Below are positions 1 through 34,449 of a stretch of DNA of 45,327 nucleotides, piece after piece (position 1 is the stretch's first letter; each line of letters starts with the position of its first letter). The DNA comes from Saprospiraceae bacterium (GTDB lineage Bacteria; Bacteroidota; Bacteroidia; Chitinophagales; Saprospiraceae). Both the position numbers and the translations under genes were made by a program. The notes beneath the pieces are model-generated. The model did no database searches. It saw nothing but the letters and a program-made list of their open reading frames with translations, and was not told the origin of the DNA. The stretch is from the NCBI GenBank assembly GCA_022844565.1, contig JALHLK010000040.1, positions 1 to 45,327 on the forward strand. The letters are read 5' to 3'.

Positions 1-101
1 CTATTTCAGCTTTAGTTGCTTATCAAACCTTTGAAAAAAAACCAAGCATCAAAATCAAGCACGAACTTGACTCTTTTAAACCCTTTTTGACTGCAGCTTA
101 A
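1..101 (+). CDS. 3' end of an unidentified gene (partial)
   Basis: The third forward frame is open from the window edge to a TAA at 99-101 and reads ISALVAYQTFEKKPSIK, then a stretch ending in FLTAA. It is only 32 codons, so no family can be named. The amino-acid mix looks like a genuine C-terminus of a soluble protein. It converges with the DUF6090 gene on the other strand, the two stop codons overlapping by a few bases, with no room for a terminator between them. The main gene body lies outside the window. It could be a chance open frame, hence the low confidence. Confidence 0.4.
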   Translation, partial: ISALVAYQTFEKKPSIKIKHELDSFKPFLTAA

Positions 102-676
102 ACATTATTCACGTTATTTAAGATCCTGCTCCTGATGTCCAATGTTTTTTCACGCCTTTCCCTATCACCATTATTCAAACTCCTTACATAATCTTGCCTC
201 GAATAATATGAACTGATTTTATTAACTAGTTCCTGATTTTTAAAATAGCGCAGATTTCCTGACTGAGTGAGCTGAATAAGTGTAGCATCATTCCAAATAA
301 AAATTGGTGAAGTTGTTCCAATTTGAGAATGATAATAAAAGGATCCTGCTACCTTGTTTCCTGAGATTCCTTGATGAATAAAGAAACTAATGCTGTCAAA
401 ACTCTTCTCGATCCTATTGAATTGTTTGATGCCTCTAATAATATTAATGGTATCATTTTCGAGATCTTTGATTAATAGCATTGCATATTCCTTTGCGTAT
501 ATTTTCTCGCTTTGACTATCTCTATAGTTTTCTGCCATAAATCCAAAGAAAACTGCTAGAAACAGCATGAGAAATTCTTTAAAATAGGATGTCCAATCTC
601 TCTTTGAGCCAGATGCCACAATGGATCCTTGGCTTTCTGTATATGGTATTTCAGGGATGTTTTTATTTTCTTCCAT
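98..676 (-). CDS. DUF6090-like membrane protein, short paralogue
   Basis: A 192-aa protein of unknown function. Residues about 28-50 hold a hydrophobic segment (YFKEFLMLFLAVFFGFMAEN) that is probably a single membrane anchor. The motif SGNLRYFKNQELV near residues 137-149 is the hallmark of the DUF6090 family found in Bacteroidota. The start ATG shares one base with the upstream paralogue's TGA, so translation is probably coupled. Its first 53 residues differ from the upstream paralogue at only two positions, while the rest is clearly diverged. It is about 80 residues shorter than its neighbour and stops in an Asn/Val-rich tail, so the C-terminal part may have been lost. Function unknown. Confidence 0.8.
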   Translation of the reverse strand: MEENKNIPEIPYTESQGSIVASGSKRDWTSYFKEFLMLFLAVFFGFMAENYRDSQSEKIYAKEYAMLLIKDLENDTINIIRGIKQFNRIEKSFDSISFFIHQGISGNKVAGSFYYHSQIGTTSPIFIWNDATLIQLTQSGNLRYFKNQELVNKISSYYSRQDYVRSLNNGDRERREKTLDIRSRILNNVNNV

Positions 677-1503
677 CAGTCGACTATGTTATAATCTTTG
701 CGTAAAAGTTTTAATATTTCTGAGTTCAGCTCCTTATAGGCTTGAAAATGAACAGAACGAGTGGAACTTAGGGCATTCACACCATAAATACCAAGTGCGT
801 TGATGGTTCTTTGTTTGTCAAATTTTTCCAAAGATTTAAATTCAAAAGGTATGATTTCATCAGAAGCTTCATATCCTGCCACTGCATTTATGTATGACAC
901 GCTATCTTTTATTAGCATCCTATGAAAATCATAATCGTAATGAAGGACTATGAGTGGGTTTATATACTCCTTTCTGACATCCGTCTCCAGCCTTTGCCTG
1001 TCATTGATATTGTAAATGGCAACTGATAAGTCGCCGATCAGCTTTTGCAATTCCCGATTCTTAAAATATCTAAGAGAACCCGAGTTTTTTAACTGGTCAA
1101 GGATGACTGTCCTAGGTTCAAAAAGAGAAGGCGTTCTGAAACTAATCCCATATGAAAAGTTAACTACAAATGTTTTGGACACATCGGTAAGGCTACTGTC
1201 TTCAAAGTACTGCATCAATTCTTGAAGGGACTTTTCCTGCTTTATTCTGTTCTCAGTTTTTATTTCCACGATGGCAGAATCAACCTTTAACTCTTCGTAT
1301 AGATTGATGGCGAGATCTTTTGCCCATGCTTCTTCAGTGAGCTTATCTCTATAGTTTTCTGCCATAAAACCAAAGAAAACTGCTAGAAACAGCATGAGAA
1401 ATTCTTTAAAATAGGATGTCCAGTCTCTTTTTGAGCCGGAAGCCACAATGGATTCTTGGCTTTCTGTAGTAGGTATTTCTGGGATGTTTTTATTTTCCTC
1501 CAT
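676..1503 (-). CDS. DUF6090-like membrane protein, long paralogue
   Basis: A 275-aa protein of unknown function. It has a short polar N-terminus, one predicted transmembrane segment at about residues 30-50, then a mainly alpha-helical soluble part with the family motif SGSLRYFKNRELQ around residue 142. The following ATG overlaps its stop codon by one base, so the two paralogues form a coupled two-gene unit produced by tandem duplication. The 5' 159 bp is about 93% identical to the neighbour at DNA level (my count by eye), which suggests recent gene conversion limited to the start. I see no catalytic motif. A role in the envelope is inferred only from the membrane anchor. Confidence 0.82.
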   Translation of the reverse strand: MEENKNIPEIPTTESQESIVASGSKRDWTSYFKEFLMLFLAVFFGFMAENYRDKLTEEAWAKDLAINLYEELKVDSAIVEIKTENRIKQEKSLQELMQYFEDSSLTDVSKTFVVNFSYGISFRTPSLFEPRTVILDQLKNSGSLRYFKNRELQKLIGDLSVAIYNINDRQRLETDVRKEYINPLIVLHYDYDFHRMLIKDSVSYINAVAGYEASDEIIPFEFKSLEKFDKQRTINALGIYGVNALSSTRSVHFQAYKELNSEILKLLRKDYNIVD

Positions 1504-6156: not shown

Positions 6157-6180
6157 TTTTAAACTTTGTATTTGTGATTA

Positions 6181-6967: not shown

Positions 6968-6968
6968 A

Positions 6969-6994
6969 TTACTGAATTGGATTACTGAATTGGA
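6969..6994. repeat. Tandem 13-bp direct repeat, two copies
   Basis: The unit ttactgaattgga occurs twice back to back between the convergent 139-aa orphan gene and the S10 peptidase gene. It may be a replication-slippage product; no function is evident. Confidence 0.8.
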
Positions 6995-7023
6995 TTAGTT
7001 ATACTTTGTTAATAAAGAAATAT

Positions 7024-8553: not shown

Positions 8554-8586
8554 GTTATTCTTTTTTTTGAAGGTAAAAGTATTAAT

Positions 8587-10098: not shown

Positions 10099-10206
10099 TT
10101 GAAATTGATTTTAATTTGATGTTATAAAATACTAAAGTATTACAATCTTCTCTATTTAACAACTTTGAGCTCATCTAGTTTTTTTGCTCGACCCTTTCAT
10201 TTTCTT

Positions 10207-10310
10207 TTATAGCCAATGCTTTTTCAATTGAGTATTAGCATTTTTTATATTTTTCATTTTAAAAATTACTTTTTTTTTATTGAAAATTAGAAAAAATAGG
10301 GAGGGGTGCT
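10207..10310 (-). pseudogene. Orphan leader with a decayed gene start
   Basis: A full copy of the array leader (10258-10310, including the 15-bp core aaaatagggaggggt at 10293-10307) precedes an ATG at 10257 in the usual place. The frame stops after 16 codons (MKNIKNANTQLKKHWL). The MKN start matches the array's signal-peptide starts, but no hydrophobic core follows. I read this as the remnant of a gene whose body was lost. It could still be expressed as a short peptide. Confidence 0.55.
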
Positions 10311-10313
10311 ATT

Positions 10314-10555
10314 ATCCCAAATTACGCATTAGAAATTAACTGCAAGTAAATTATGCTTCATATTAGTTTCAGTACTCAATTTTCCGTCCTCAATGAAGCT
10401 TAGGCTGCAAAAATTATTGGAAAAGCTAAAATCCAGTTGGTTTTAGTTCGCTGCTAAATTGATATTTCGGATATCAATTTTTTACGCAGCTCATGTGTTT
10501 CACTACTATTTTGCCTAATTTCCTTTCGAATAAAGTCCAATGCGTAATTTGGGAT
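10314..10555. mobile_element. MITE-like element with 17-bp terminal inverted repeats
   Basis: Perfect 17-bp inverted repeats, ATCCCAAATTACGCATT (10314-10330) and its complement (10539-10555), bound 208 bp without coding potential. Inside, GCTGC (10450-10454) and AAATTGATAT (10456-10465) pair with ATATCAATTT (10471-10480) and GCAGC (10486-10490) around a TTCGG loop, forming a strong hairpin. It begins within 7 bp of the orphan leader box. This structure fits a miniature inverted-repeat element; no target-site duplication is obvious. Apart from this element and the orphan leader, the 10.1-10.6 kb gap holds nothing I can name. Confidence 0.45.
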
Positions 10556-10599
10556 TATGATTTTTAAGGCCATCTCTAATTTGCCAGGTACTCATATAA

Positions 10600-12873: not shown

Positions 12874-12925
12874 TTTAAAAACTTGTTGTTTTGATACAAA
12901 AATAGAAAAATAAGGAGTGGGTAAA
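12874..12925 (-). promoter_or_regulatory. Array leader copy before the PD40 gene
   Basis: A diverged copy of the leader: an AT tract next to the ATG, a TATTTTTG -7-like element at 12897-12904, and the C-rich box (aaggagtggg on the plus strand, about 12911-12920). It lies directly after the DUF1624 tail scar that follows the S9 gene. Confidence 0.5.
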
Positions 12926-12933
12926 TGTACAAA

Positions 12934-12969
12934 CTACAAATAACTCAACCACTATTTTTCTTTATGATG
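12934..12969 (-). pseudogene. 36-nt DUF1624 tail scar after S9 peptidase copy 1
   Basis: Directly after the S9 stop codon and in the same frame, the minus strand reads HHKEK-stop-WLSYL-stop. The two intact DUF1624 proteins in this window end KEKWWLSYL. At DNA level about 30 of 31 bases match the DUF1624 gene at 15058. One TGG has become TAG, so the piece is non-coding. Confidence 0.75.
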
Positions 12970-14994
12970 TCACTTTAAATACTTATCTAACCATTCCAAT
13001 ATATATCTATTCATTTCTCTGGTTCTTATTGGATCTGTTGGTATATGACCTGAAATGGGGAAAGCGATAAACTTAGATTCCACACCATTGTCTTGCAATA
13101 CTCTGAAATAGGTATAGGATTGAGAAATAGGCACTCGTTCATCTCCTGTATTAGATAAAATCAAAGTGGGCGTTTTTACATTCTCAGCGTAAGTAATGGG
13201 TGAATTTTTCATCCAATTTTCTTTCACTTTCTTATCGGTGAAAGGAGATTTTCCCTTTCCTTGTTCATACCGAATCTTAAATCCATTATCGCCTTGGGTA
13301 GATTGAGCCATCCAGTCTGTAACGGCTGCACCCGCTACTGCACATTTCCAACCTAGGTAGTTTCCAATCAGCCATGTAGTCATAAAGCCACCATAGCTCC
13401 ATCCTGTAACAGCAATTTTAGTAGTGTCTATATAGCTACGCTTTTTAAGTTCCGCCAAACCTCTAATTACATCTCTACCCGGTCCTTCTCCAGCATCACC
13501 ATTAATAGCTTCCGAAAAACGATAACCCATATTATCACTTCCACGATAATTAGGTTGAAAAACGATATATCCATGTGCTGCTTTTAATTGGGCAGATGGG
13601 TTAAATGACTCTTTGGAGGTTGACCTTGGTCCTCCATGAATTTCTAATACCAATGGATATTTTTTTGCTGGGTCAAAATCGGGTGGGAAAGTAAGAATAC
13701 CATTGGGTGTAAACTCATCTGATTTCCAGCTAAATGTTTCTTGTTTACCAAATGAAATACTTTTTACCTCTTCACTGAAATTGGTTAATTTTTTGGGAGA
13801 TGATTCTGCATTTGCTAAGAAATACAATTCTTGTGGCGACTGAGGAGAACTTGCAATCAAAGCAATTGAATTGTTTTGCCCAATATTGAATTGATACCAA
13901 TATGCACCTGTAATACATAAGTTATTGAGATTTATCTTTTTTGCAGCCCCATTGAGAGGTTGCATCCATAATGAAACTGTATTACCGTCATTAGCTGATG
14001 TAAAAATACTCTTGCTATCGGCACCCCATTCGTGTTTAAAAAAGCATCGGTCGATAGGAGCAGTCAAGTTTCTTTCTATACCTCCTCCATTGGCTGCTGT
14101 AAAATATACATCAGAAGCATTGACCACATTTTCCAAATTACGTTGATATGCTATTGACCTGCCGTCTGGCGAAAAAATTGGTCGATGCTCCAAATGCAAA
14201 GCATCTTTTGCTACCTGCTTGGCTGTAATTCTCTTTGTTATTCCAGTGGCTACTTCTACTGTTTTAGCATAGAAAGCTTTTTCGCCTGAATAAGGTGTTT
14301 CTGCAGTTTCAAATGCGATTAATTTTCCGTCTGGCGACCAAGATATGGGAACAGGAGTAGCACCAAAGGCGGCAGTATTGGGAATTGTCCAATTGCCAGA
14401 CGTCAATCTTTTCGTCTCGCCACCATCGGCTGAAATTAGCCAGATATGAGCTGGGATTGGCCTTTTATTTAAAAACATACCGTTGTACTTTATTTCAAAA
14501 GCATCGTATCCTTTTTCTATTTCTTTTTTATTAGGGACGTCATCTTCCTGCACGAAAGCAAAAGTGCTTGCATCCGGACTCCATGCAAATTGCTGCACAC
14601 CCGTAGGAGAAGAGGTGATTTTCTTTGCCTCACCTCCATTTATTGACAAAACAAATATTTGACTTTTGCCTGCTGCATCAGCCGATATAAAAGCCATAGC
14701 ATTGCCCGTTGGAGACCATCTTGGGTAACTTACAGAGACTCTATCGAATGTGAGTTGCTGGCTTGTTCCCGTTCCTACATCTACATTATAAATAAATGAT
14801 TTGTTTTTATTGCTTATTGTATCGGGTTTCGACACTACAATCAAAATTGATTTACCGTCTGGCGATATTTGTGGGTCGGTTAACGTATATAGTTTATCCA
14901 AATCATTTAACTCAAATTTCTTTTGAGCTGATAGCTGAAGGGAAAATAGATGGAGCAATGTGATAACTACGAGGTTTGTTTTTTTATTTTTCAT
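12970..14994 (-). CDS. Exported S9-family prolyl oligopeptidase-type peptidase, copy 1
   Basis: A 674-aa serine peptidase with a signal peptide (MKNKKTNLVVITLLHLFSLQLSAQ), a beta-propeller made of PD40-like blades (residues about 35-410) and a C-terminal alpha/beta hydrolase domain. The triad is S533 (GWSYGGF), D618 (NTGDERVP) and H650 (SGHIPTD), typical of dipeptidyl/acylaminoacyl peptidases that cleave short peptides. It is a paralogue of the gene at 16339-18339. The catalytic domains are nearly identical while the propellers differ more, including an extra seven-residue insert near residue 207 here. An array leader precedes it and a DUF1624 tail scar follows it. Confidence 0.95.
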   Translation of the reverse strand: MKNKKTNLVVITLLHLFSLQLSAQKKFELNDLDKLYTLTDPQISPDGKSILIVVSKPDTISNKNKSFIYNVDVGTGTSQQLTFDRVSVSYPRWSPTGNAMAFISADAAGKSQIFVLSINGGEAKKITSSPTGVQQFAWSPDASTFAFVQEDDVPNKKEIEKGYDAFEIKYNGMFLNKRPIPAHIWLISADGGETKRLTSGNWTIPNTAAFGATPVPISWSPDGKLIAFETAETPYSGEKAFYAKTVEVATGITKRITAKQVAKDALHLEHRPIFSPDGRSIAYQRNLENVVNASDVYFTAANGGGIERNLTAPIDRCFFKHEWGADSKSIFTSANDGNTVSLWMQPLNGAAKKINLNNLCITGAYWYQFNIGQNNSIALIASSPQSPQELYFLANAESSPKKLTNFSEEVKSISFGKQETFSWKSDEFTPNGILTFPPDFDPAKKYPLVLEIHGGPRSTSKESFNPSAQLKAAHGYIVFQPNYRGSDNMGYRFSEAINGDAGEGPGRDVIRGLAELKKRSYIDTTKIAVTGWSYGGFMTTWLIGNYLGWKCAVAGAAVTDWMAQSTQGDNGFKIRYEQGKGKSPFTDKKVKENWMKNSPITYAENVKTPTLILSNTGDERVPISQSYTYFRVLQDNGVESKFIAFPISGHIPTDPIRTREMNRYILEWLDKYLK

Positions 14995-15045
14995 TATAAA
15001 TATTTATTTTTTGATTAAAAAATTGAAAAAATAGGGAGGGGTATA
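14995..15045 (-). promoter_or_regulatory. Array leader copy before S9 peptidase copy 1
   Basis: Contains the exact 15-bp core aaaatagggaggggt (15028-15042, plus-strand reading). This is followed towards the ATG by the ttgattaaaaaat motif and a short AT run. On the minus strand the core reads as a C-rich box followed by TATTTT, about 45 nt before the start codon. Confidence 0.65.
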
Positions 15046-15057
15046 AATTTGTAGATT

Positions 15058-16242
15058 TCACAAATAACTCAACCACCATTTTTCTTTATTATTGGCTTTG
15101 TAGTGCATATACTTTTTACAAAATGGATAAAGGAATAACACAATGCCAATCCAAACCAAATACACTACAAAAAGAGAGTAGCCATAGGTAATAAGTTTTT
15201 GGCTCATAAATCCTTTGCTTGTTATAATCATATCCTGCCAATCACCTCCAAAAATCAACATGCCAATAATAGCAAAAACGTGAATCACTATCATGTGCAA
15301 AAAGTAATAGAATAGGGGCACTCTTCCATAAACCAAAAAGAAATCTGTTAATCTGTTTTTTGTATTTTCATAAGCATATAAAAACAACATGGCAGGACCA
15401 AGCGTAATGCAAAGAAATAATAAGGAAGGTGGATATTTTGTTACTTTAAAAAATGACAATATTGTTTTGCTTGTAGTATCTTGAACAGTCCATGGTACTA
15501 AGTCGCCATACACATTCAATCCTCTTAAAACAAAGAACAGCATAATACATCCTAAGCCCAGCCTCATTAACCATTTTTTACGAATTATGGCATCAAAATC
15601 TTTTTGATAAAACCCGCCAAACAAATATCCCAATGCCATTAAACCTATCCACGGGATAAGTGGGTATTTAAAATAGACCACATAATCTGAACCAAAGACC
15701 ACCATATTTTCTTGATGGAGGAAATACCAAATAATGGAAATTACACTTTGTCCTTGCATTACAATATTATCCAAAGCATTATGCCCTGCAATTAATATTA
15801 CGCCTAGTATTAAGATCACTTTTTTAGGAAAATAAATGAGCAAGGATAAACATACCATACTAAATCCTATTGCAAAAATTACTTGGAATATTTGAAAGCT
15901 GTAGGCAACATCAAAAGTCCAGATAAAAGTATTCACTACTATTTCAAGAAAAATGAGCCATAAACCACGGGTAAAAAGAAATTTAAAAAGCTGCGGCTTC
16001 GTTTTATTAGTACCATACAAAAAGGCAGAGGTGCCCGATAAAAAAACAAAAACAGGGGCACAAAAATTGGTTATAAAACGGGTGAAAAATAATAGGGGCG
16101 TTGTAGTTTCCAAATTGGTTGGGTCAATAAAAAATGTGCCATAGTGAAAATAATCTCTTACATGGTCTAATGCCATTATTACCATTACCACACCTCGCAA
16201 GACGTCAATGGATTCTATTCTGGGTTTTGTGATTGTTGTCAT
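15058..16242 (-). CDS. DUF1624 / HGSNAT-like membrane acyltransferase, copy 1
   Basis: A 394-aa integral membrane protein with about ten hydrophobic segments. The N-terminus (RIESIDVLRGVVMVIMALDHVRDYF) is the conserved core of the DUF1624/heparan-alpha-glucosaminide N-acetyltransferase family, with the Asp-His pair that is catalytic in HGSNAT. Family members move acetyl groups across the membrane onto amino groups of extracytoplasmic acceptors; the acceptor here is unknown. It is flanked by the two S9 paralogues, and its C-terminal coding sequence (KEKWWLSYL) recurs as scars after both. A second copy lies at 23026-24186. Confidence 0.88.
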   Translation of the reverse strand: MTTITKPRIESIDVLRGVVMVIMALDHVRDYFHYGTFFIDPTNLETTTPLLFFTRFITNFCAPVFVFLSGTSAFLYGTNKTKPQLFKFLFTRGLWLIFLEIVVNTFIWTFDVAYSFQIFQVIFAIGFSMVCLSLLIYFPKKVILILGVILIAGHNALDNIVMQGQSVISIIWYFLHQENMVVFGSDYVVYFKYPLIPWIGLMALGYLFGGFYQKDFDAIIRKKWLMRLGLGCIMLFFVLRGLNVYGDLVPWTVQDTTSKTILSFFKVTKYPPSLLFLCITLGPAMLFLYAYENTKNRLTDFFLVYGRVPLFYYFLHMIVIHVFAIIGMLIFGGDWQDMIITSKGFMSQKLITYGYSLFVVYLVWIGIVLFLYPFCKKYMHYKANNKEKWWLSYL

Positions 16243-16296
16243 TTTGTTTTAATAGTTAATTTTTTGATTAAGGAACAGAGAAAATAGGGAGGGGTA
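16243..16296 (-). promoter_or_regulatory. Array leader copy before DUF1624 copy 1
   Basis: Carries the exact 15-bp core at 16281-16295. In this copy a minus-strand TTTG lies 19 nt upstream of TATTTTCT, a spacing like the -33/-7 Bacteroidota promoter. The TTTG falls inside the DUF1624 tail scar at 16303-16338. The other copies do not keep that spacing, so promoter function is uncertain. Confidence 0.6.
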
Positions 16297-16302
16297 GTAA
16301 TT

Positions 16303-16338
16303 TTACAAATAACTCAACCACCATTTTTCTTTATAATG
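16303..16338 (-). pseudogene. 36-nt DUF1624 tail scar after S9 peptidase copy 2
   Basis: Immediately after the S9 TGA, in frame, the minus strand reads HYKEKWWLSYL-stop, which is the C-terminus of the DUF1624 proteins in this window. Read-through of the TGA would add these 11 residues. The coincidence of frame and full match rules out chance similarity. Confidence 0.8.
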
Positions 16339-18339
16339 TCACTTTAAATACTTATCTAACCAATCCAATATATATCTATTCATTTCCTTGATTCTTATTG
16401 GGTCAGTTGGTATATGACCTGTAATGGGGAAAGCGATAAATTTAGATTCCACACCATTGTCTTGCAATGCTCTGAAATAAGTATATGATTGAGAAATAGG
16501 CACTCGTTCATCTCCAATATTCGATAAAATCAAAGTAGGTATTTTAACATTTTCCACATAAGTTATCGGAGAATTTTTTAACCAGTTTTCCTTTACTTTC
16601 TTATTAGTAAATGGAGATATGCCTTTGCCAACTTCGAACCTAGACATACTTCCCACATCGTTTTGGGTATGTTGAGCCAGCCAATCTGTAACTGCTGCAC
16701 CAGCTACTGCACATTTCCAACCTTGGTAGTTTCCAATTAGCCAAGTAGTCATAAACCCACCATAGCTCCAACCGGTAACTGCAATTTTGGTACTGTCTAT
16801 GTAGTTACGCTTTTTTAGTTCTGCCAAACCTTTCATTACATCTCTGCCCGGTCCTTCCCCTGCATCTTCATTAATAGATTCCGAAAAACGGTAACCCATA
16901 TTATCGCTGCCACGATAGTTGGGTTGAAAAACAATAAACCCACGAGCCGCTTTTAATTGTACCGATGAATTGAATGATTCTTTTGATGTTGACCTTGGTC
17001 CGCCATGTGGTTCCAACACTAAAGGATATTTTTTAGTTGGGTCAAAATCGGGAGGGAAAGTAAGAATTCCGTTGGGTGTAAATTCATCTGATTTCCATGT
17101 AAAAGTTTCTTGTTTTCCTAAAGAAATATTTTGCACTTCATCATTAAAGTTAGTTAGCTTTTTAGGAATGGCTTCTGGAGTTGCCAATACGTATAATTCT
17201 TGCGGAGATTGTGACGAACTAGCTATAAACGCAATAGCATTATTTCTTCCTACATTGTATTCATACCAATAGCTGCCTGCGATGCTCAAATTATTTAGGT
17301 TTAATTTCTTTGCGGCACCTGTAAGCGGTTGCATCCACATTGAAGTAGTATTGAAGTCGTTCGCAACTACAAAAATGGCTTTACTGTCCGAACTCCATTC
17401 TGCCCTAAAGAAACATCGGTCCAATTTAGCAGTCAAATTAATCCCGTTGCCTCCATTGGGTGAGGTAAGAAAAACATCAAAGCCATAACCAACATTTTCC
17501 AGATTGCGTTGATAAACTATTGACTTACCATCGGGAGAAAAAACGGGCAGTCTTTCTTTATGCATTGCATCAGGTGGAATTTGACTGTTGGTAATTCTAT
17601 TAATATTACCACTGGCTATTTCTACAGTTTTAATCATACTAATAAGTTCACCAGAATAAGGCGATTCATTGCTTTGAAATGCAATTTGTTTTCCATCGAT
17701 TGCCCAAGAAATACAGGGGGCAGAGGGGATTGTCCAACTGCCAGCAGTTAGCCTTTTTGCTTCACCACCTTCAGAAGCAATGAGCCAAAGATGAGATGGT
17801 GTCGGTTTGGCATTCATAAACATACTATTATATTTCACCTCAAAAGCATCATAACCTTTCTCCATTTCTTTTTTATTGCTTACTTCGTCTGCCTGAGTAA
17901 AGGCAATTGTATTTCCGTCAGGACTCCAAGCAAATTGGTTTACACCAGTAGGTGAAGAAGTGATTTTTTTAGCTTCGCCTACGTTCATAGACAATACAAA
18001 TAGTTGACCTTTGCCTGCTACATCGGAAGCAATAAAAGCAATAGCATTACCCGATGGAGACCATCTTGGATAACTTACTGAGGTTCTTTCAAAAGTCAAT
18101 TGCTGTTTTGCACCAGTAGCCACATCTACTTTATAAATAAATGGTTTATTCTTATTGGTTGCTGTATCAGGCTTTGATACAACGATTAAAATGGATTTGC
18201 CATCAGGTGATATTTGTGGGTCGGTCAAAGTATATAGCTTTTCCAAATCATTTAATTGAAATGTCTTTTGTGCCAATAGCTGAAGGGAAAATAGATGGAG
18301 CAATGCAATAAATAGGAGGATCGTTTTTTTATTTTTCAT
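16339..18339 (-). CDS. Exported S9-family prolyl oligopeptidase-type peptidase, copy 2
   Basis: A 666-aa paralogue of the S9 peptidase at 12970. A signal peptide (MKNKKTILLFIALLHLFSLQ, then LLAQ) precedes a PD40-type propeller (about 35-400) and an alpha/beta hydrolase domain with S525 (GWSYGGF), D610 (NIGDERVP) and H642 (TGHIPTD). The HGGP oxyanion motif is preceded by Pro instead of the Ile seen in copy 1. It is eight residues shorter, both deletions being in propeller loops. Divergence concentrated in the propeller, which gates substrate entry in this family, suggests the copies have different peptide preferences. An array leader lies upstream and a tail scar downstream. Confidence 0.95.
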   Translation of the reverse strand: MKNKKTILLFIALLHLFSLQLLAQKTFQLNDLEKLYTLTDPQISPDGKSILIVVSKPDTATNKNKPFIYKVDVATGAKQQLTFERTSVSYPRWSPSGNAIAFIASDVAGKGQLFVLSMNVGEAKKITSSPTGVNQFAWSPDGNTIAFTQADEVSNKKEMEKGYDAFEVKYNSMFMNAKPTPSHLWLIASEGGEAKRLTAGSWTIPSAPCISWAIDGKQIAFQSNESPYSGELISMIKTVEIASGNINRITNSQIPPDAMHKERLPVFSPDGKSIVYQRNLENVGYGFDVFLTSPNGGNGINLTAKLDRCFFRAEWSSDSKAIFVVANDFNTTSMWMQPLTGAAKKLNLNNLSIAGSYWYEYNVGRNNAIAFIASSSQSPQELYVLATPEAIPKKLTNFNDEVQNISLGKQETFTWKSDEFTPNGILTFPPDFDPTKKYPLVLEPHGGPRSTSKESFNSSVQLKAARGFIVFQPNYRGSDNMGYRFSESINEDAGEGPGRDVMKGLAELKKRNYIDSTKIAVTGWSYGGFMTTWLIGNYQGWKCAVAGAAVTDWLAQHTQNDVGSMSRFEVGKGISPFTNKKVKENWLKNSPITYVENVKIPTLILSNIGDERVPISQSYTYFRALQDNGVESKFIAFPITGHIPTDPIRIKEMNRYILDWLDKYLK

Positions 18340-18385
18340 TTTAAAAAATTGTTTTTTTTATTAAAAATTAGAAAAAATACGATGG
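18340..18385 (-). promoter_or_regulatory. Array leader copy before S9 peptidase copy 2
   Basis: A leader variant with tacgatgggt in place of the G-rich core (about 18377-18386, plus-strand reading) and the usual AT tract to the ATG. The TATTTTTT element on the minus strand is kept. The C-rich part is weaker than in the other copies. Confidence 0.5.
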
Positions 18386-18405
18386 GTTACATTGTTTTAT
18401 ATGCA

Positions 18406-19890
18406 TCATCGTACCCTATCCGTTCCAGTTTGGGTTAACAACAGATTCAATTCTTTTTTCATCTTTTTAAGTGTTCTATACATTTTCGGATTATCAATTG
18501 AGTTTTGAAGTTCGTAAGGATCCTTAGCAAGATCATAAAGTTCATTCATTCCTTCCAAATCCACATAGTGTATATATTTGTAGCGTTCATTTCGAACTGC
18601 TTTGTAGCCCATTTTTAATATTCTGGGAAATACCGTGTCGCTATAATATTCTACGAGAAAAGATTTTCGCCAATCCTTGACAGATCCGTCAAAAATAGGT
18701 ACCCACGATTTTCCTTGAAGATGAGCACTTGGAGTTTCTCCTGCCATGTCTAGTAAAGTTGAAGCAAGGTCTATACTCAATACCATTTGTTGTGGCTTCG
18801 TTCCTGGTTTGATCATTGGTGGATACCTGACAAGCATTGGAATGCGAAGACCTTCTTCGTAAGCAAGTCTTCGTTCTAAATCAAGGCAATGTTCTCCATA
18901 CCAATAACCATGATCACTAGTGAATACCACAATAGTATTATTTAACGCTCCTTTATCTTCAAGGGTTTTTAATATTGCCCCAAGACCTTCATCTACTGCC
19001 ATCAGCATTTCTGAACGCTCACGGATGGTCTTCTCCTTGGTTGAAGTTTCAGAACTTAAGGGTGGAACACCTTCTATTTTCCGTCTAAGGGCTGGCTTGT
19101 CAAGTGGAATGACATTATAGTTGGGTCTTCGGTTGAATAAAGCAGATTCATACATCCCTAAATGTCTTTCGGCTGGTATAAATTCACCTTCGCCATTATT
19201 TAGAACTTTGCCGTCATCGTGTTGTACTACATTGGGGTGAAGTGACTTGTGAGCAAGATACAGCAAAAAGGGTTGATTCCGCTCTTGATTAATAAATCGA
19301 AGGGAGTGATCAATCAGGATATCTGTTACGTACCCCTTTACAATTTGTTGATTACCATTTATGTTTAAAGAAGGGTCAATTGCTTCTCCTTGTCCTTTTA
19401 ACGAAACCCAATAATCGAATCCGGGCCGTTTTGAATCATCATTGCCCATATGCCATTTACCGATGAATGCAGTGGCATATCCATTAGTATGAAGTTGTTT
19501 TGGAAATGTGTTAAGTTTATGACTTTGTTCATTACGTGCTGTATTGTCAATGATACCATTGGTATGGGCATATTGACCAGTGAGGAAATTTGCCCGACTG
19601 GGCGAACAAAGGGGAGTAATAGCAAATGCATTGACAAAACTGGCACCTTCTTTAGCAAGCCTATCTATGTTTGGTGTCTTTATATAATTATGCCCCACTT
19701 CACCATATTCATCCCATCGCATATCGTCCACGAGGATTACGACTATATTAGGGCGGTTTGGGACTCCAGAAAGTTGGATAGAATTACTACTTTGTCTCCC
19801 CAATTCAAATGCCTTTTGCGCTGATGCTAATTGAAAAGAAAATACATGTATCAATGTAATAAATAGAAGGGTTGTGTTTTTATTTTTCAT
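18406..19890 (-). CDS. Exported type I sulfatase (formylglycine-dependent)
   Basis: A 494-aa arylsulfatase-family enzyme that hydrolyses sulfate esters. The signature CSPSR holds C95, the residue normally converted to formylglycine. Metal-binding D55-D56 (VILVDDMRWDEYG) and the second signature region GYATAFIGKWHMG are present, and TSDHGYWYGEH supplies the C-terminal metal ligands. The first 30 residues (MKNKNTTLLFITLIHVFSFQ, then LASAQKAFEL) match those of the two S9 peptidases, including the residues after the signal cleavage site, although the families are unrelated. The formylglycine-generating enzyme is not in this window. There is no SusC/D or glycosidase nearby, so a polysaccharide-utilisation role is not supported by context. 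Confidence 0.93.
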   Translation of the reverse strand: MKNKNTTLLFITLIHVFSFQLASAQKAFELGRQSSNSIQLSGVPNRPNIVVILVDDMRWDEYGEVGHNYIKTPNIDRLAKEGASFVNAFAITPLCSPSRANFLTGQYAHTNGIIDNTARNEQSHKLNTFPKQLHTNGYATAFIGKWHMGNDDSKRPGFDYWVSLKGQGEAIDPSLNINGNQQIVKGYVTDILIDHSLRFINQERNQPFLLYLAHKSLHPNVVQHDDGKVLNNGEGEFIPAERHLGMYESALFNRRPNYNVIPLDKPALRRKIEGVPPLSSETSTKEKTIRERSEMLMAVDEGLGAILKTLEDKGALNNTIVVFTSDHGYWYGEHCLDLERRLAYEEGLRIPMLVRYPPMIKPGTKPQQMVLSIDLASTLLDMAGETPSAHLQGKSWVPIFDGSVKDWRKSFLVEYYSDTVFPRILKMGYKAVRNERYKYIHYVDLEGMNELYDLAKDPYELQNSIDNPKMYRTLKKMKKELNLLLTQTGTDRVR

Positions 19891-19984
19891 TATTTAAATT
19901 GATTTTATTGAATAAAAAATTGAGAACCTAAGGTTTTAGCATCTATGAAGTATAATATTTGCTGATTATTTCCCCTGTATTCAT

Positions 19985-21403
19985 TTAGTTTTTTGGCAAT
20001 GTCAAATAATCAGGCTCTTCAATTGGAGACCGTGTTTCCATACTTGTATTAAACATATCGGTTTGTAAACGCCAGTTATTTTTCTCCTTCTTGTAGATTG
20101 CTATAAACTTTCCAATGTCTATGATTTCACCTTGCTTATTGTTCATCACATATTTACCTTTTGCGATTATTTTGTCACCACTTTGTTCAAGGTCAATAAA
20201 CTGTAGCTCTATTGTGTGCATTCCTCTTATAGAAACGGTATGCCAAAAACTTGCAATTGCTTTTTGCCCTGTCACCGGGGGTGAGCCAGGAGCCATAATC
20301 ATAGCATCGGTTGCATAAATTGCTGCTACACTGTCCCATGCTGCTTTATTAATTAATCTCACGAGCTCTGTTTCGACTTTAATTACTGCGGCTCTTGCTT
20401 TCAGATATGCAGAACCTTTTACATCAGTTGGCAAAACTAGACCGACACTTTTGGATTCCAAGACTGAATTACTAGGCCACTTATTCTGCAAAAACTGTTC
20501 TACAGCAGTGAAAAAAACTGCCGGTTTATCAACATAGGGAAGGTGACCTGTTCCATCAATAATCAATAATTGACTGTTTGGCAAACTATTTTTCCATTCT
20601 TCCCAAACGTCAATTGGGATTTCATCTTTATCGCCACCTACTATTAGAGTCCTTGACTTTACTTTTGAAAGTTGGGCTGTTATATCCCATTTACCCATTG
20701 ATTGGAGCGAATAAAACAAAATTGGATTTAATAAATTTTGTTGATTACAATTACAGACATCACCCCATATTCTTCTTGCGTGGAGTGGTGTGGGAAATTT
20801 TCCACGAGCCCATACTGCATAATAATCCCAACAAGCCTTAATAGTGTCCGTAGGCGAGGTCCTGTAAATTTTTCTATTCTGCCTGAGAATTAGATTTGAC
20901 ACACTATCCAATCGATTTGAATTCTGCCATTTTTGAGACGCTGCTATTGGATTTATAAGTATCGTTGATTCAATATTGTTGGGGTAAAATATTGCGTAAT
21001 AGCCGAATAATAAGCAACCAAGAGAGTGAGCAAGTACTTTCATTTTTTTTAGGTGAAAATGTTTTCTAACAATCTCCACATCTTGAACAAAGCGGTTAAT
21101 ATTTAGTCTCGCAGTATCTGTAACAACAGATGAAAAACCTGTACCTGGCTGATCAAAAAATAAAAGTGTATGGTGAGCAGCAAGGGGTGTCAAATCAGGA
21201 ACAAGATAACTTGAACCAAATCCGCCACCATGAAACACAACAATGGTGTCTTTTCCTTCTCCAATTAGTCTGTAAAAAAGACGTACGGAATCATTTGTCT
21301 GTATATACCCTTCTGATGATTTTAGTTTTACGGTTTGTGCAACTAATACAATAGGTACGATTAGGGTTAGTGACAGCACAATGAAAAGTGTTCTTATTTT
21401 CAT
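19985..21403 (-). CDS. Exported alpha/beta hydrolase fused to an NTF2-like domain
   Basis: A 472-aa two-domain protein. After a signal peptide (to about residue 23) comes an alpha/beta hydrolase of the proline iminopeptidase type: oxyanion motif HGGGFGS at 58-64, nucleophile S127 in AHSLG, an acidic residue in GDKDEIPID and the His in GTGHLPYVDKP. From about residue 335 to 460 a SnoaL/DUF4440-type NTF2-like domain follows (ARAAVIKVETELVRLINKAA, IYATDAMIMAPGSPPVTG). The hydrolase part resembles the lipoprotein hydrolase at 28394. The NTF2-like part resembles the separate lipoprotein at 41092. The fusion is uncommon and may act as a dimerising or ligand-binding module. Confidence 0.9.
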   Translation of the reverse strand: MKIRTLFIVLSLTLIVPIVLVAQTVKLKSSEGYIQTNDSVRLFYRLIGEGKDTIVVFHGGGFGSSYLVPDLTPLAAHHTLLFFDQPGTGFSSVVTDTARLNINRFVQDVEIVRKHFHLKKMKVLAHSLGCLLFGYYAIFYPNNIESTILINPIAASQKWQNSNRLDSVSNLILRQNRKIYRTSPTDTIKACWDYYAVWARGKFPTPLHARRIWGDVCNCNQQNLLNPILFYSLQSMGKWDITAQLSKVKSRTLIVGGDKDEIPIDVWEEWKNSLPNSQLLIIDGTGHLPYVDKPAVFFTAVEQFLQNKWPSNSVLESKSVGLVLPTDVKGSAYLKARAAVIKVETELVRLINKAAWDSVAAIYATDAMIMAPGSPPVTGQKAIASFWHTVSIRGMHTIELQFIDLEQSGDKIIAKGKYVMNNKQGEIIDIGKFIAIYKKEKNNWRLQTDMFNTSMETRSPIEEPDYLTLPKN

Positions 21404-21457
21404 TTTTAAATTTGTTTTATTGAATAAAAAATAGTGGAAATATTTAGGGTAAAAAAA

Positions 21458-22978
21458 TTATTGCTTCAATACTTTATGATGTAATTCCAAATGTTCTTTT
21501 AATAAATCCTTCCCGTAATCATTGCCATTCGGTGTTCGAACTACCGTATGAATATGCGTTTTGACTGGACCCGGATGTGGCTTCGATCTATCCCATAAAA
21601 ACACAGGTAGTTTGTGGTCAAACTCTATCATAATTACGGGGCTGTGAATACGATAATAAAACGGCCCATCTATTTTATCACCTTGAATCCATGTGAAATG
21701 AGTTTCTTTTAGAAACATTTTCACTTCTTCCATTTTAGTTTTTGAGTGACCTTCTCGTATGTTGCCTACATATTCTTCAATCAAATTAAGCAAAACAGTT
21801 TGTTGTTTTTTTGATAATTCATTGGCAGGAAGTCCTGTTGTTGCAATGATTTCATTGTCGCGAAAAGCTTCACCACGATTAAAATCAAATTCCTTTTTAT
21901 GCCAAAGTGTAGCTTTTTTCTTTTGTTTTGCGTTAAGTGACAAATAAAAATCCAAACCTTTTTTCTCTTCTATTTCGAATGTTCTCAAGCCTTTATGATC
22001 ACCTGTTTCGATGAGCGTTGGTTCAGATCCCATAAAAGTAGGAGTCATTACAATTTGGTCACCTAAAATAAAGTAGTTAATGACCAAATGATGCCCCTCC
22101 ATTTGCCATCCCCAAGGCGCTCTATCAGATGGACTTCCAAAAAAAGTGAACCAATATTTTTCACCCCCCAACCTATCGTTTCCTGGAACTAATGTCGCTA
22201 AATAGGCTTCCATTGACATAATATTCTTAGATTTTTGAAATCCTTTGGCACTTAAACTTTCTTTTAACAATGTAAATAACAAATCTTTTTGAACTTGATT
22301 CATTTCTTCCAAAACAATACCAGCCCTTGGCCAATTTTCTATATTATGCCATCTTCGCCATTCCTCTGATTCAATTGGAAAAGTACAATTTGTTCTTTGT
22401 TGCTCGTTGAGTGATTCGAGTAATGCTGTTGCTGCATTTTTTATAGATGCTGTAGAGAATCCAGTTTTTTTGATTGGAAACAGTTTTTTTACCGGCTTTT
22501 TGTCGGTCGTGATACCTACATAAGGTTTTGCTAATAATGTTCTTTCCTCAGATGATTCGGGAACAATAAAAAGCATTTGAGTTGCTTTCACTTTCATTTC
22601 CATACCGTCTACAAAGCCCCAACTTTCATGCCTGTCTTGGTTTTTACTTTTGTCAAGTACAAAACTCCCTTTATTATCATAATTCTCATGGATTTCTGTA
22701 TAAAAGTATTGGATAGTCTTGCCAATCAAAGAATCGGGGAAACTAAGGGTTTGTTGATAAAGCCCATTTACGTCAGGTGTTTTGGGGAAATATGAAGTAT
22801 TCACAACTGTTTTACCTTCCTCATAAGGCTGAACGAACCATAGAATGCCCACTGAATCAGGGTTTTCCATTTCTGTTATTTTCAACTTAAAGGTTATGTT
22901 ATGGTCTGTGCTATTTTGTTGGGGAAAAGCAAAATTTGACAAAAGGCAAAAACCGAGGAACAAAATTATTTTTTTCAT
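21458..22978 (-). CDS. Exported DUF3500 protein with an extra N-terminal domain
   Basis: A 506-aa protein. A signal peptide (MKKIILFLGFCLLSNFAFPQ) is followed by about 140 residues of beta-rich sequence that could be an immunoglobulin-like fold. The DUF3500 domain runs from about residue 175 to the end. It is recognised by the Trp/His-rich core (WRRWHNIENWPRAGI, PWGWQMEGHHLVINYF) and the C-terminal IHTVVRTPNGNDYGKD. The many conserved His and Trp suggest metal or ligand binding, but no activity is established that I know of. It lies between the hydrolase-NTF2 fusion and DUF1624 copy 2. Confidence 0.85.
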   Translation of the reverse strand: MKKIILFLGFCLLSNFAFPQQNSTDHNITFKLKITEMENPDSVGILWFVQPYEEGKTVVNTSYFPKTPDVNGLYQQTLSFPDSLIGKTIQYFYTEIHENYDNKGSFVLDKSKNQDRHESWGFVDGMEMKVKATQMLFIVPESSEERTLLAKPYVGITTDKKPVKKLFPIKKTGFSTASIKNAATALLESLNEQQRTNCTFPIESEEWRRWHNIENWPRAGIVLEEMNQVQKDLLFTLLKESLSAKGFQKSKNIMSMEAYLATLVPGNDRLGGEKYWFTFFGSPSDRAPWGWQMEGHHLVINYFILGDQIVMTPTFMGSEPTLIETGDHKGLRTFEIEEKKGLDFYLSLNAKQKKKATLWHKKEFDFNRGEAFRDNEIIATTGLPANELSKKQQTVLLNLIEEYVGNIREGHSKTKMEEVKMFLKETHFTWIQGDKIDGPFYYRIHSPVIMIEFDHKLPVFLWDRSKPHPGPVKTHIHTVVRTPNGNDYGKDLLKEHLELHHKVLKQ

Positions 22979-23025
22979 TTTTAAAAATTATTTTTAGATA
23001 AAAAAGTGAGGCTTCTCATGGCATT

Positions 23026-24186: not shown

Positions 24187-24270
24187 TTTAAAAATTTATT
24201 TTTGATTAATACCCATTAAAATATGGAATAGGTCGCCATTCTAAAGCAGGAGATACTGATAGCAATATTT

Positions 24271-25074: not shown

Positions 25075-25177
25075 GAAATATTTGTTTAAAATTTGTTTTT
25101 TTGATTGGAAAATAGATAAATTATAGCGTACGGGGACATCCCGAAGTCTTTCGAGGCTTTGGGGTTAAAATTCGTTT

Positions 25178-25195
25178 TATAAATAACTCAAACAC
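25178..25195 (-). pseudogene. Short DUF1624 tail scar after the hydroxyacid oxidase gene
   Basis: Directly after the stop codon of the FMN oxidase gene, TATAAATAACTCAAACAC (plus strand) matches all but two bases of the DUF1624 3' end. Only the last 18-19 bp are recognisable. A hairpin-like, GC-richer stretch (about 25134-25166, acatcccgaagtctttcgag) follows; a related string occurs at 31036-31060 downstream of the C59-like gene's leader. Confidence 0.45.
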
Positions 25196-26347: not shown

Positions 26348-26391
26348 TTTCTTAGCTTTTAAATTATGTCAGTTTTAGCTTTTTCGCTTTT

Positions 26392-27075: not shown

Positions 27076-27084
27076 GTTATGCTT

Positions 27085-28326
27085 TTATTTTTTAGCACCT
27101 TCCAGCTCTGCCAATTTCTTCCTTGAAACTTCATTTTCTTTAATTTCTAAAGCTTTTTTTAATTGAATAATGGCATTTGCCTTATCATCGATCGCGATCA
27201 AATAATCGGCATAAGAGTCATACACATTATAATTGTCAGGATAATTGTCCACATTAAGTTTGAACAAACGCTCTGCTGATTTATACATTTTCCTTCCCAA
27301 AAAATCATACCCCATGTAATTGATTTCACCTTCATCAGGTTTGATTTGGTAACCCATTTTTTTTGATAAATAGGCATAGTGGTTAAGATACTTTTCAGCG
27401 AGGGCACCTGTAGAATCTTCGAAGTCTCTCATGGTGAGTTTTAATGCAAAACCTTCGAAGAAAAACCGCAAGGCATCATACTCCGTAATGAGGGGGGCAG
27501 AGCCATGCGTGTCATCAGGATAGTATTTCCCTTTGTACTTTAGTCCACTATTTTTGTTCTTTTCAAATGCGGCTTGTAATTTCAAAATGGATCGAATATG
27601 TTCAGTAGCTTTTGCAGTATCTTTTTGAACCGTTTTTATGTCCATTCCTTCCTCCAATGTGTTGGCAATACCTAGATACAGGGATTTTCCTTCAAATTTT
27701 CTTTCTGACAAGGCTTTTTCGGTTTGCTTAAGAAGTGTTTGTTTATCCCACCACATACTCGGGTCTATGCAAATATAGGAATTAAACAGATCTGTGTGGT
27801 GTACGAAAGTCTGCATCACCGCCAATCCGCCAAAAGAATGCCCAATAAGTATTTTATGTGCGGCTGTAGGGTAATTTGCTTCAATATGCGGCATTAATTC
27901 CTTTTCTAAAAAAGCGATAAAGTTTTCGCCCCCTCCTGATGTTTTTGAGAATGTACTATCCATGAAAGGTGGGTCGGCATCAATGTGGGTAGGGGTAAGA
28001 TCTCTTGTTCTATCCGTATTAGGAATGCCAACAACAATCATTTTTGGACACATCGTATTGCCATTGATGGTACTCAATTGCTGAATCATCCCTACTACAG
28101 ATGAAAAATGTCCATCACCATCCAATAGGTACACCACAGGAAAACGTTCTTTATTGGTGGCGGGTACATCAGGCACGTGTACCCAGATTTTTCTGTTTTC
28201 ACCTATTATTTTGGATTGAACGCTGTCAATTTTGCCTATGACAATGTTTTCTTTTTCTATTTTTCCTTGAGAGAAGGTAAGTGTTGCCAAAAGGCAAAAA
28301 GCGAGATGTAAGATTATTTTTTTCAT
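27085..28326 (-). CDS. Exported esterase (Fes/IroE-type) with C-terminal TPR segment
   Basis: A 413-aa alpha/beta hydrolase of the esterase D/enterochelin-esterase-like family. A signal peptide (MKKIILHLAFCLLATLTFSQ) is followed by the hydrolase domain with VVYLLDGDGHFSSV at about 64-77 and the nucleophile S164 in IGHSFGG. The family His is probably in DDTHGSAPL. The last about 100 residues contain a tetratricopeptide-like stretch (YNVYDSYADYLIAIDDKANA). Family members hydrolyse siderophore or other ester bonds; no iron-uptake gene is nearby, so siderophore use is not supported here. The signal-peptide DNA resembles that of the DUF3500 gene. Confidence 0.9.
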   Translation of the reverse strand: MKKIILHLAFCLLATLTFSQGKIEKENIVIGKIDSVQSKIIGENRKIWVHVPDVPATNKERFPVVYLLDGDGHFSSVVGMIQQLSTINGNTMCPKMIVVGIPNTDRTRDLTPTHIDADPPFMDSTFSKTSGGGENFIAFLEKELMPHIEANYPTAAHKILIGHSFGGLAVMQTFVHHTDLFNSYICIDPSMWWDKQTLLKQTEKALSERKFEGKSLYLGIANTLEEGMDIKTVQKDTAKATEHIRSILKLQAAFEKNKNSGLKYKGKYYPDDTHGSAPLITEYDALRFFFEGFALKLTMRDFEDSTGALAEKYLNHYAYLSKKMGYQIKPDEGEINYMGYDFLGRKMYKSAERLFKLNVDNYPDNYNVYDSYADYLIAIDDKANAIIQLKKALEIKENEVSRKKLAELEGAKK

Positions 28327-28393: not shown

Positions 28394-29461
28394 TCAATAT
28401 CGAGGTGTCGATTTCAAGAAATTGTCTAAGGTATCAATGGCCACTTTTGGTTGATCTAACCAAAACATGTGTCCTGCATTTGGAATCCAAACCATTTTAG
28501 AATTTTTAATATTGTAAACATACTGCATGGTGGCCTCTTTAGGAACTAAAGTTTTCTCACCCTCAATAACAATTGTTGGTACATTTATTTGTTTAAGCAT
28601 TGGACGAAAATCGTAAATTTCCCCAAAAGAACTATAACAATAAACCAGAGTACTATAAATACTTTTTAATGTTAAAGGCGAGTAAGTGTATATTGTTCCT
28701 CTTGCCCTGTCAAAATGAGAAGGGACTAAAACATATGCTGGAGCAATTAATGAATCCAAGGTTTTCCATAAACCTTGAATCTCATCATCTCTTGAAATTG
28801 TCCATAAGCTGTCAATCTTTCGTATTTTTTGATTAGTTTCTTTTCCCAAATGTGAGTTGAATGTTTCCTCACGTTGCTTTTTGTCAATACTGTTTGTCCA
28901 CATTGGGCCTAATAGAGCCATGCACTCAACATTATTTGGGAATTGGTATGCGTAAAAACTGCAGATTCCCGCACCCCATGAAACACCTGCAAGTGATAAC
29001 TTGTTTATGTTGAAGTGTTTTCGCAATGCCTCTAAATCTGCCACAAAACTACTCATTGTCAGTATTGTACTATCCATTACCAATTCTGAACGTCCACAAC
29101 CTCTTTGGTCGTAGCTTATAAAAGTGTAACCCCTTTCAGCAATTAATTCATAGTCTAATGCTGCGTCTTCAATCCCAATAGGTCCGCCATGAACAAAGAC
29201 TAAAGTGTCTTTTCCTGAACCAACTATTCTATAAAAGAGCTGTACCCCATTCTCCCCCTGAAAATATCCTTGTTTTAGTTCCTGTTTGTCGGGTGCTGGT
29301 GGTAATGGTGCTTGTTGGGGTGGCAAAGATGTAGAGAGTGATTTTGAGGGTGGTAATGGAGAAAGACTCATCTGTTTTTGATTTTTATTAGTGCAGCCAA
29401 CAAATAAGTAGAGCACGTTTACCACAAGGCAGAAAGTAAGAAATAAAATTGGATTTTTCAT
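28394..29461 (-). CDS. Alpha/beta hydrolase lipoprotein (proline iminopeptidase-like)
   Basis: A 355-aa envelope-anchored hydrolase. A lipobox FVGC gives C23 as lipidation site. A Pro/Ser-rich linker (about residues 33-58) leads to the hydrolase domain. HGGPIG at 91-96 is the oxyanion motif of the S33 family, DQRGCGRS at 119-125 is the typical S33 element, S161 (GVSWGAG) is the nucleophile, and the His lies in NAGHMFWLDQP near the end. S33 enzymes release N-terminal proline or act on related esters and amides. It is a paralogue of the hydrolase half of the fusion at 19985. Confidence 0.92.
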   Translation of the reverse strand: MKNPILFLTFCLVVNVLYLFVGCTNKNQKQMSLSPLPPSKSLSTSLPPQQAPLPPAPDKQELKQGYFQGENGVQLFYRIVGSGKDTLVFVHGGPIGIEDAALDYELIAERGYTFISYDQRGCGRSELVMDSTILTMSSFVADLEALRKHFNINKLSLAGVSWGAGICSFYAYQFPNNVECMALLGPMWTNSIDKKQREETFNSHLGKETNQKIRKIDSLWTISRDDEIQGLWKTLDSLIAPAYVLVPSHFDRARGTIYTYSPLTLKSIYSTLVYCYSSFGEIYDFRPMLKQINVPTIVIEGEKTLVPKEATMQYVYNIKNSKMVWIPNAGHMFWLDQPKVAIDTLDNFLKSTPRY

Positions 29462-29510
29462 TTATAAAATTGATTTTTTTGATTAAAAAATAGAGAAAAT
29501 ACTGGGGGTA
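29462..29510 (-). promoter_or_regulatory. Array leader copy before the alpha/beta hydrolase lipoprotein
   Basis: The plus-strand reading tagagaaaatactgggggta (29491-29510) is closely matched by the leader at 36271-36290. The ttgattaaaaaa motif and the AT run to the ATG are present. Confidence 0.6.
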
Positions 29511-29580
29511 TCAGTTTTGAATTAAGCCACACTCAAACTTCTAAATTGAACCTTTGCAAGCGGAAAATCCCAATTAGTAT

Positions 29581-34197: not shown

Positions 34198-34232
34198 ATA
34201 GATCTTTTAACCGAGTATTTTACTTTTTAATA

Positions 34233-34288
34233 GGCCGCACCTTTCAATACGTCAAACTTCTCCATAGCCATTCGAGAGGCCCAAAATT
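34233..34288 (-). pseudogene. DUF418 C-terminal remnant
   Basis: The minus strand reads NFGPLEWLWRSLTY-stop-KV, matching the DUF418 protein at 39281, whose C-terminus is FGPLEWLWRSLTYWKVQ. About 80% of 57 bases agree with the DUF418 gene (my count by eye). A TGG has become TGA. Weak similarity may continue to about 34330. Upstream of it 34330-34449 holds nothing I can name. Confidence 0.7.
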
Positions 34289-34449
34289 AAAAATATTGAT
34301 GTAGTAACTAAATTGAACTTTTTCATACATTATTTCAATAATTAGGGTCGAAGACGGGCTCATGTTAAATTAGGCTATAGTTATTCTTGTCGAAAGTCTT
34401 TGCTGAAAATACTTATAGATAATTCCCATTTGCCCATCTAATTAAAACA

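Follow-up and report, generated by a model that had tools for sequence, protein, structure and literature searches.

We analysed a 45,327-nt contig (C40, JALHLK010000040.1; hereafter the window, i.e., the whole stretch) from the 5.59-Mb, 102-contig genome of a Saprospiraceae bacterium, and found that a sulfatase gene in its array of hydrolase genes, most of them putatively exported, shares the DNA of its start, its signal peptide, and its first mature residues with two neighbouring S9 peptidase genes (S9a and S9b) whose bodies have no detectable homology to its own. Exchange of fronts between genes is well supported, and gene fronts and bodies here have separate histories. The reading that we favour, at a probability of about 0.75, is terminal reassortment in an array shaped by repeated duplication and deletion, which would move a front (a leader of ~55 nt, start codon, signal peptide, and a few mature residues) onto new bodies. 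The sulfatase gene would then be a chimera, with the front of an S9 peptidase copy and a body from a sulfatase probably acquired elsewhere, and the DUF3500 gene of the window and a beta-lactamase gene in another genome (G650) would likewise bear the front of the array's esterase.

The shared front of the sulfatase and the S9 peptidases (module A; Table 1) is visible both as DNA and as protein. The local DNA alignment of the sulfatase with S9a spans -36 to +89 (score 114), that with S9b scores 99, and blastn of the coding regions matches the sulfatase to each S9 gene at 77.5% (bases 1-89 vs 1-86, E = 8e-14). As the initial annotation had claimed, the likeness runs beyond the apparent end of the signal peptide (AQK) to KxFEL/FQL, after which it ends; 20 to 21 of 29 residues are identical. 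The coding-start score is 79 for both sulfatase/S9 pairs and, among the 253 pairs of 23 window genes, is exceeded only by S9a/S9b and the pair of acyltransferases. As background we used 61 predicted exported genes from 19 other stretches (375 kb) of the same genome, called with a simple open reading frame (ORF) and hydrophobicity script, whereas the signal peptides of the array were assigned by eye. Six of the 1,830 background pairs score at least 50, all within one family (L114), and the other 1,824 reach at most 33, so the likeness is well above that between random exported genes. As proteins, over the first 34 residues, the two sulfatase/S9 pairs score 94 and 91, none of the 61 background genes scores above 33 with the sulfatase, and pairs of background genes go up to 48 once the L114 family is excluded. 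The L114 locus (C2:180001-200000 of the same genome) holds exported genes with a common start (MKK..., QNVGIGTTNPQSKLHV) and six pair scores of 70 to 138, which may represent another family with shared fronts or reflect an N-terminal domain in common.

This N-terminus is not native to the sulfatase family as far as sampled, being carried by none of the 86 homologues fetched (best score 37 vs 91 and 94 for the S9 genes). With the front standing above background and absent from sulfatase homologues, the proposal that a 5' module was joined to a new gene body remains the best reading. Regarding its direction, the F of the F-x-L that follows the signal peptide is present in six of 12 S9 homologues; this residue, the only family-native trait seen, points from S9 to sulfatase. 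Across 396 genomes of the order, no S9 relative exceeds 38% identity, leaving no close S9 front to compare. A search of the S9b front against 398 genomes of the family (E 1e-7) gave a single match outside its own genome (G554; 43 nt, E = 1.1e-8), and this match precedes a gene that is unrelated by eye.

The nearest sulfatase, at a locus (L028) of a Cytophagia metagenome-assembled genome, is 81% identical in amino acids. Aligned as DNA with the window gene, its first two 60-column blocks agree at 0.58 and 0.55, vs 0.77-0.95 for every other complete block. A copy of the array leader starts at the third base past its stop codon (1522-1562; score 52, background 25, rest of the locus at most 33), and this sulfatase may hence have sat in such an array there too. 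The next listed ORF at that locus (1605-3224) lies on the opposite strand, and the remaining ORFs look unrelated to the array by eye.

The initial annotation had also proposed a second, weaker signal-peptide group, comprising the DUF3500 gene, the esterase, and the hydrolase lipoprotein, and this group (module B) proved to be real. Among window coding regions compared by blastn, 10 rows appeared at E 1e-3, of which four link unrelated families, all from the first codon: S9a/sulfatase, S9b/sulfatase, DUF3500/esterase, and hydrolase/M20 peptidase (90% over 29 nt, E = 7e-5, where the M20 match begins at an internal ATG, six codons past the listed start). The hydrolase and esterase score 88 over leader and first bases. 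By comparison, 13 of 30 rows among 274 background genes link unrelated genes and none starts at base 1 of both, although a 25-nt row (E = 9e-5) pairs bases 8-32 of one gene with bases 5-29 of the other, close to both starts.

Relatives of the esterase occur in 61 of the 398 family genomes at E 1e-60 (its own and 60 others), the best at 70-81% identity in other genera. As regards a donor family for module B, esterases of four genomes of genus g18 have a like signal peptide, but the g57 esterases have a different one; fronts vary among esterase orthologues that retain the leader. In G650, a beta-lactamase gene adjoins the esterase and is 74.7% identical to the window gene at 1680-3338 (residues 4-359). 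Of the first 60 nt of the G650 gene, however, 48-50 agree with esterase starts (50 with an esterase of another genus) and 19 with this window relative. Where the G650 beta-lactamase shares residues with the G306 esterase, 12 of 13 codons are identical against 6.1 expected (p = 0.0002). Module B was found in none of 16 other beta-lactamase relatives and none of nine DUF3500 relatives (best score 31), start codons in other genomes having been picked by rule, evidently wrongly in one case (L178).

Across 309 starts from the window and the context genomes (a set that includes alternative ATGs of single genes), 33 pairs without detectable body homology score at least 44: two are sulfatase/S9, 30 are module B, and one stems from a common upstream gene. 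Thirteen of the 30 module B pairs are esterase/hydrolase, two families within the alpha/beta-hydrolase superfamily; further, the module B rows are not independent because G540, G203, G306, and G022 represent one genus. Loci L149-L155 (G540, G203, G022) share part of a gene pool (AAT, DUF418, esterase; in some, PAD, hydrolase, and DUF4440) in varying order, e.g., the esterase lies upstream of the hydrolase in G540 and the order is reversed in the window.

Spacers of the array hold debris of genes that stand elsewhere in it. Blastn of spacers against genes returned 11 rows, six of which mark four remnant places (two acyltransferase tails of about ten final codons directly past the S9 stop codons, a DUF418 gene tail, and a collapsed esterase copy in which leader and start codon are followed almost immediately by the C-terminal tail); the remaining rows, five short ones of 16-26 nt (E = 6e-4 to 0.009), were set aside. 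In addition, the S9 paralogues are more alike at their ends than in the middle, with codons agreeing at 19 of 22 positions up to residue 30, at 144 of 281 from there to residue 450, and at 128 of 183 beyond it (p = 0.0014 for the front and 7e-5 for the end, each against the middle), a pattern that the acyltransferase pair does not show (13/22, 72/146, and 5/9). Two adjoining paralogues at 98-1503, which lie outside the enzyme array proper and have no Pfam hits, show a sharp boundary of 5' likeness. A weak likeness to the acyltransferase tail (68%) lies at 25174-25211, past the end of an FMN-dehydrogenase gene, and the spacer at 29462-29580 holds what by eye is a possible gene tail (TNWDFPLAKVQFRSLSVA) that matches none of the window proteins.

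A leader of ~55 nt ahead of the start codon is common to many array genes. The sulfatase and S9 genes do have this DNA in common, as had been claimed, but it is not specific to the trio: of 25 window starts, 14 (including the collapsed esterase copy) score above the 99.5th background percentile with three or more partners in pairwise comparison, and the sulfatase leader scores higher with the hydrolase (47) and the AB-hydrolase (46) than with S9a (36) or S9b (29). With a leader model (R1), 150 of 14,275 own-genome candidates were scored and 16 matches had E < 0.02, every one of them on this contig; as 22 window leaders went into the model, the matches within the window are circular, and the information lies solely in the lack of matches elsewhere. 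For a single hydrolase leader query, the nine best own-genome places all lie on the contig (22 of 188 candidates scored); for a single S9b front query, the eight best, itself included, lie there and the next, elsewhere, has E = 3e-5 (40 of 191 candidates scored). At 281 starts of the context genomes (again with alternative ATGs; for G273, among the genes listed), only six leader scores reach at least 40, vs a maximum of 34 in the 61 background genes. These six are the beta-lactamase of G650, the hydrolases of G540 and G306, and the esterases of G273, G654, and G540; two further esterases come close, with 37 in G650 and 36 in G203. The export module is not necessarily tied to a single leader.

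Two features are enriched in the array leaders: CCC, marking a C-rich patch, occurs in 10 of 14 of them and in 6 of the 61 background sequences, and for a TATTTT box the respective counts are 12 and 14. The word TAnnTTTG is typical of Bacteroidota promoters; occurring in two of the 14 array leaders vs 17 of the 61 background genes, it is not supported as the promoter word of the leader. A known RNA in the leader was rejected, as the window has no Rfam match at gathering score. The leader would likely be a promoter with 5' untranslated region, and a shared regulator may be the reason for its conservation. A leader-like match also occurs in another family of the order (G036:C96:1247-1291, E = 3.8e-7).

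We propose the following route. Array genes would duplicate in tandem, and a deletion with one endpoint within the front of a copy and the other within the adjoining gene would join that front to the body of the neighbour; partial or failed events would leave gene tails and collapsed copies in spacers, and later exchange between copies would homogenise their ends. The body-less esterase copy indicates that deletions starting near a front do occur, and conversion between fronts probably acts too. The probable benefit is that an incoming enzyme would immediately gain an expressed, exported start under the control of the array.

Several observations weigh against this reading or narrow it. The sulfatase and S9 genes have identical codons at 12 of 19 and 12 of 20 shared residues where about nine are expected (p = 0.09 and 0.11), so that their DNA likeness is largely implied by amino-acid likeness; either the event is old, which we think probable from this comparison, or the DNA adds little to the protein evidence. 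Codon identity is marginal for DUF3500/esterase (9 of 12, p = 0.03) and not significantly above expectation for hydrolase/esterase (4 of 7, p = 0.32) or for the G650 beta-lactamase and DUF3500 (10 of 14, p = 0.08). The L028 sulfatase start is degenerate and close to a contig edge, and its LAQKT codons (99-115) are identical to the end of the S9b signal peptide over 17 nt, so that the fusion may predate the split from L028. Among the genomes compared, we found none with a close sulfatase body and an intact native signal peptide, and saw no intermediate in which an S9 copy stands beside an unfused sulfatase. Five of the 10 context esterases (G306, G022, G649, G604, and G453) have leader scores below 35. 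Leaders that lie farther apart in the array are not less similar (Mantel r = -0.06, p = 0.33), and we set aside spread of the leader via nearest neighbours as unsupported. Finally, the Pfam lists of 30 ORFs (three of them without a hit) name no recombinase.

The strongest alternative concerns the route rather than the exchange: short-patch gene conversion between 5' ends, with a resident front overwriting that of the recipient, could stand in place of deletion fusion. The more similar ends of S9a and S9b, the 98-676/676-1503 pair with its nearly identical front, and the esterase orthologues that retain the leader under unlike fronts all fit such conversion. It requires starting homology, though, and none is detectable between the sulfatase and S9 bodies, which would leave a leader of ~40-60 nt as the sole anchor; nor does it explain the gene tails and the body-less copy. 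As a replacement for deletion fusion, we give it less than even odds. Less probable again, and a tentative idea at this stage, is an extension of terminal reassortment in which leader and signal peptide form a travelling expression-and-export front, an array-forming Bacteroidota element that crosses genera with its cargo and repeatedly captures unrelated enzymes.

It is also conceivable that no exchange took place, and that a regulon promoter was kept by selection (e.g., under the AraC-type hybrid) while the signal peptides converged. A candidate regulator does stand at the head of the array, G649 has a 43% identical relative of it ~11 kb from its esterase, the C-rich patch and TATTTT box are enriched in array leaders, and the sulfatase/S9 codon identity is close to expectation. 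Yet convergence would not predict the number of identical residues in the sulfatase/S9 fronts, including those past the signal, the concentration of 32 of the 33 start-match pairs in these two modules, the tails of genes left in spacers, or the different front on a related beta-lactamase of another genome, and we regard this explanation as improbable. A shade more doubtful still is mis-binning, whereby the contig would belong to another organism and the leader would be that organism's ordinary one. The window is a whole contig of a fragmented assembly, and its positions 20001-40000 have the least typical tetranucleotide composition among 21 pieces (0.967); positions 1-20000, though, are typical (0.985), the GC content of 35.9% lies within the 32.2-36.8% of 19 sampled stretches of the own genome, and in ten other contexts the leader (score at least 40) occurs only at esterase, hydrolase, and beta-lactamase starts. 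Mis-binning would in any case leave the sharing of fronts by unrelated genes unexplained. Plasmid and phage origins were rejected, with no blastn match to 12970-19890 in a plasmid collection and no S9 relative among viral contigs.

Among known systems, terminal reassortment of type III effectors is closest: as described in PMC2668190 and PMC2935791 (both citing Stavrinides, Ma and Guttman 2006), N-termini that carry export signals are shuffled onto unrelated bodies. Here too, unrelated coding sequences have a common 5'/N-terminal region beyond chance, and relatives of the recipient bodies (sulfatase, DUF3500, and beta-lactamase) lack it. Unlike in type III effectors, the signals are Sec-like, the cargo consists of hydrolytic enzymes in one chromosomal Saprospiraceae array, and tails and a body-less copy remain in place. 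For type III effectors, upstream regulatory sequence is reportedly carried along as well; the leader here is common to the sharing genes, but also to much of the array. Pfam families in the window are hydrolases and membrane enzymes with Sec-like starts, and no type III effectors were seen among them. A limited search of open-access literature found no report of terminal reassortment of Sec-exported Bacteroidota enzymes.

In Rhs C-terminal displacement, according to PMC2935791, a constant front takes new 3' parts and displaced 3' parts remain as fragments, with a conserved core giving homology for crossing over. Four tail remnants lie in the locus here, while the constant part is only ~125 nt, there is no long core, and what follows it is an entire enzyme, from one family or another. 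Exchange by recombination among tandem paralogues, as reported in PMC9484751, resembles the present case in that adjoining genes exchange sequence, and differs in that those genes are paralogues whereas here the front is common to unrelated families. Separately, integron cassette arrays, like this array, consist of unrelated genes that point the same way and are separated by conserved spacers of ~60 nt. We nevertheless rejected integron-like cassettes, given that no integrase occurs among the Pfam hits of 30 of the 32 ORFs (three of the 30 had none) and that the AT-rich spacer shows no attC core sites or attC-like ends by eye.

The genes from 44752 down to 98 all lie on the minus strand, save 3847-4581 and 6533-6952. 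Pfam was run on 30 of the 32 window ORFs of at least 120 residues, and the array families include S9 peptidases, the sulfatase, the esterase, alpha/beta-hydrolases, beta-lactamase-like enzymes, and AAT-type acyltransferases, together with M20 and S10 peptidases, a PAD-type deiminase, DUF3500, DUF418, HGSNAT-like membrane acyltransferases, and others.

Table 1. Coordinates of fronts, bodies, remnants, and leader copies in the window
Feature	Position	Strand	Basis
Sulfatase ORF	18406-19890	-	At coordinates given beforehand
Sulfatase body (PF00884, SGSH_C)	18406..19755	-	Pfam; module A junction between 19802 and ~19755
Module A on sulfatase (leader part, start codon, signal peptide, AQKAFEL)	19802..19926	-	76% to S9b 5' region, E 2.4e-16 (whole-genome search)
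S9 peptidase a (S9a)	12970..14994	-	ORF; Pfam
Module A on S9a	14908..15033	-	84% to S9b, E 9.5e-33
S9 peptidase b (S9b), tandem paralogue of S9a (75% amino-acid identity)	16339..18339	-	ORF; Pfam
Module A on S9b	18253..18400	-	Query of own-genome search; DNA alignment
Esterase with module B (leader plus MKKIILHLAFCLLATLTFSQ)	27085..28326	-	Similar module on g18 esterase orthologues
Alpha/beta-hydrolase lipoprotein, leader and module-B-like start	28394..29461	-	Start alignments
DUF3500 gene, module B start	21458..22978	-	84% to esterase start, bases 1-43, E 7e-7
Acyltransferase 3' tail remnant (HKEK*WLSYL), directly past S9a stop	12936..12968	-	93.9%/33 nt to end of 15058-16242, E 8e-10
Acyltransferase 3' tail remnant (YKEKWWLSYL), directly past S9b stop	16305..16337	-	97.0%/33 nt, E 7e-11
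Collapsed esterase copy (leader, start codon, esterase C-terminal tail; no body)	10196..10319	-	80%/49 nt, bases 1149-1197 of 1,242-nt gene, E 9e-6
DUF418 gene tail remnant (spacer 34193-34449)	34227..34292	-	80%/66 nt to end of 39281-40597, E 5e-12
Adjoining paralogues with shared 5' end (98-676 / 676-1503)	98..1503	-	First 160 nt 93% identical; 51/53 residues in front, 47/136 behind
Array leader, best copy	29459..29523	-	R1 model search, own genome
Leader copies, 6154-28389	6154-6203, 10255-10319, 12871-12926, 14992-15055, 16243-16311, 18337-18408, 19888-19947, 21401-21465, 24184-24241, 25082-25132, 27031-27091, 28324-28389	-	R1 model
Leader copies, 30985-39223	30985-31044, 36238-36291, 39158-39223	-	R1 model
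7TMR-DISM histidine kinase / response regulator / AraC HTH hybrid	41864..44752	-	Pfam; array head; candidate regulator

How laterally acquired genes gain expression and export in a new host is an old question, and the captured fronts are readable here. Related enzyme bodies with unlike fronts across genomes, together with the debris of failed events, form a natural series, in which one front stands on four bodies without detectable homology (esterase, hydrolase, DUF3500, and beta-lactamase). Such a series allows testing of the route (deletion fusion vs conversion) and of the benefit (export and regulation gained at once). Annotators should note that, in such arrays, neither signal peptides nor likeness at the N-terminus tracks the descent of the enzymes.

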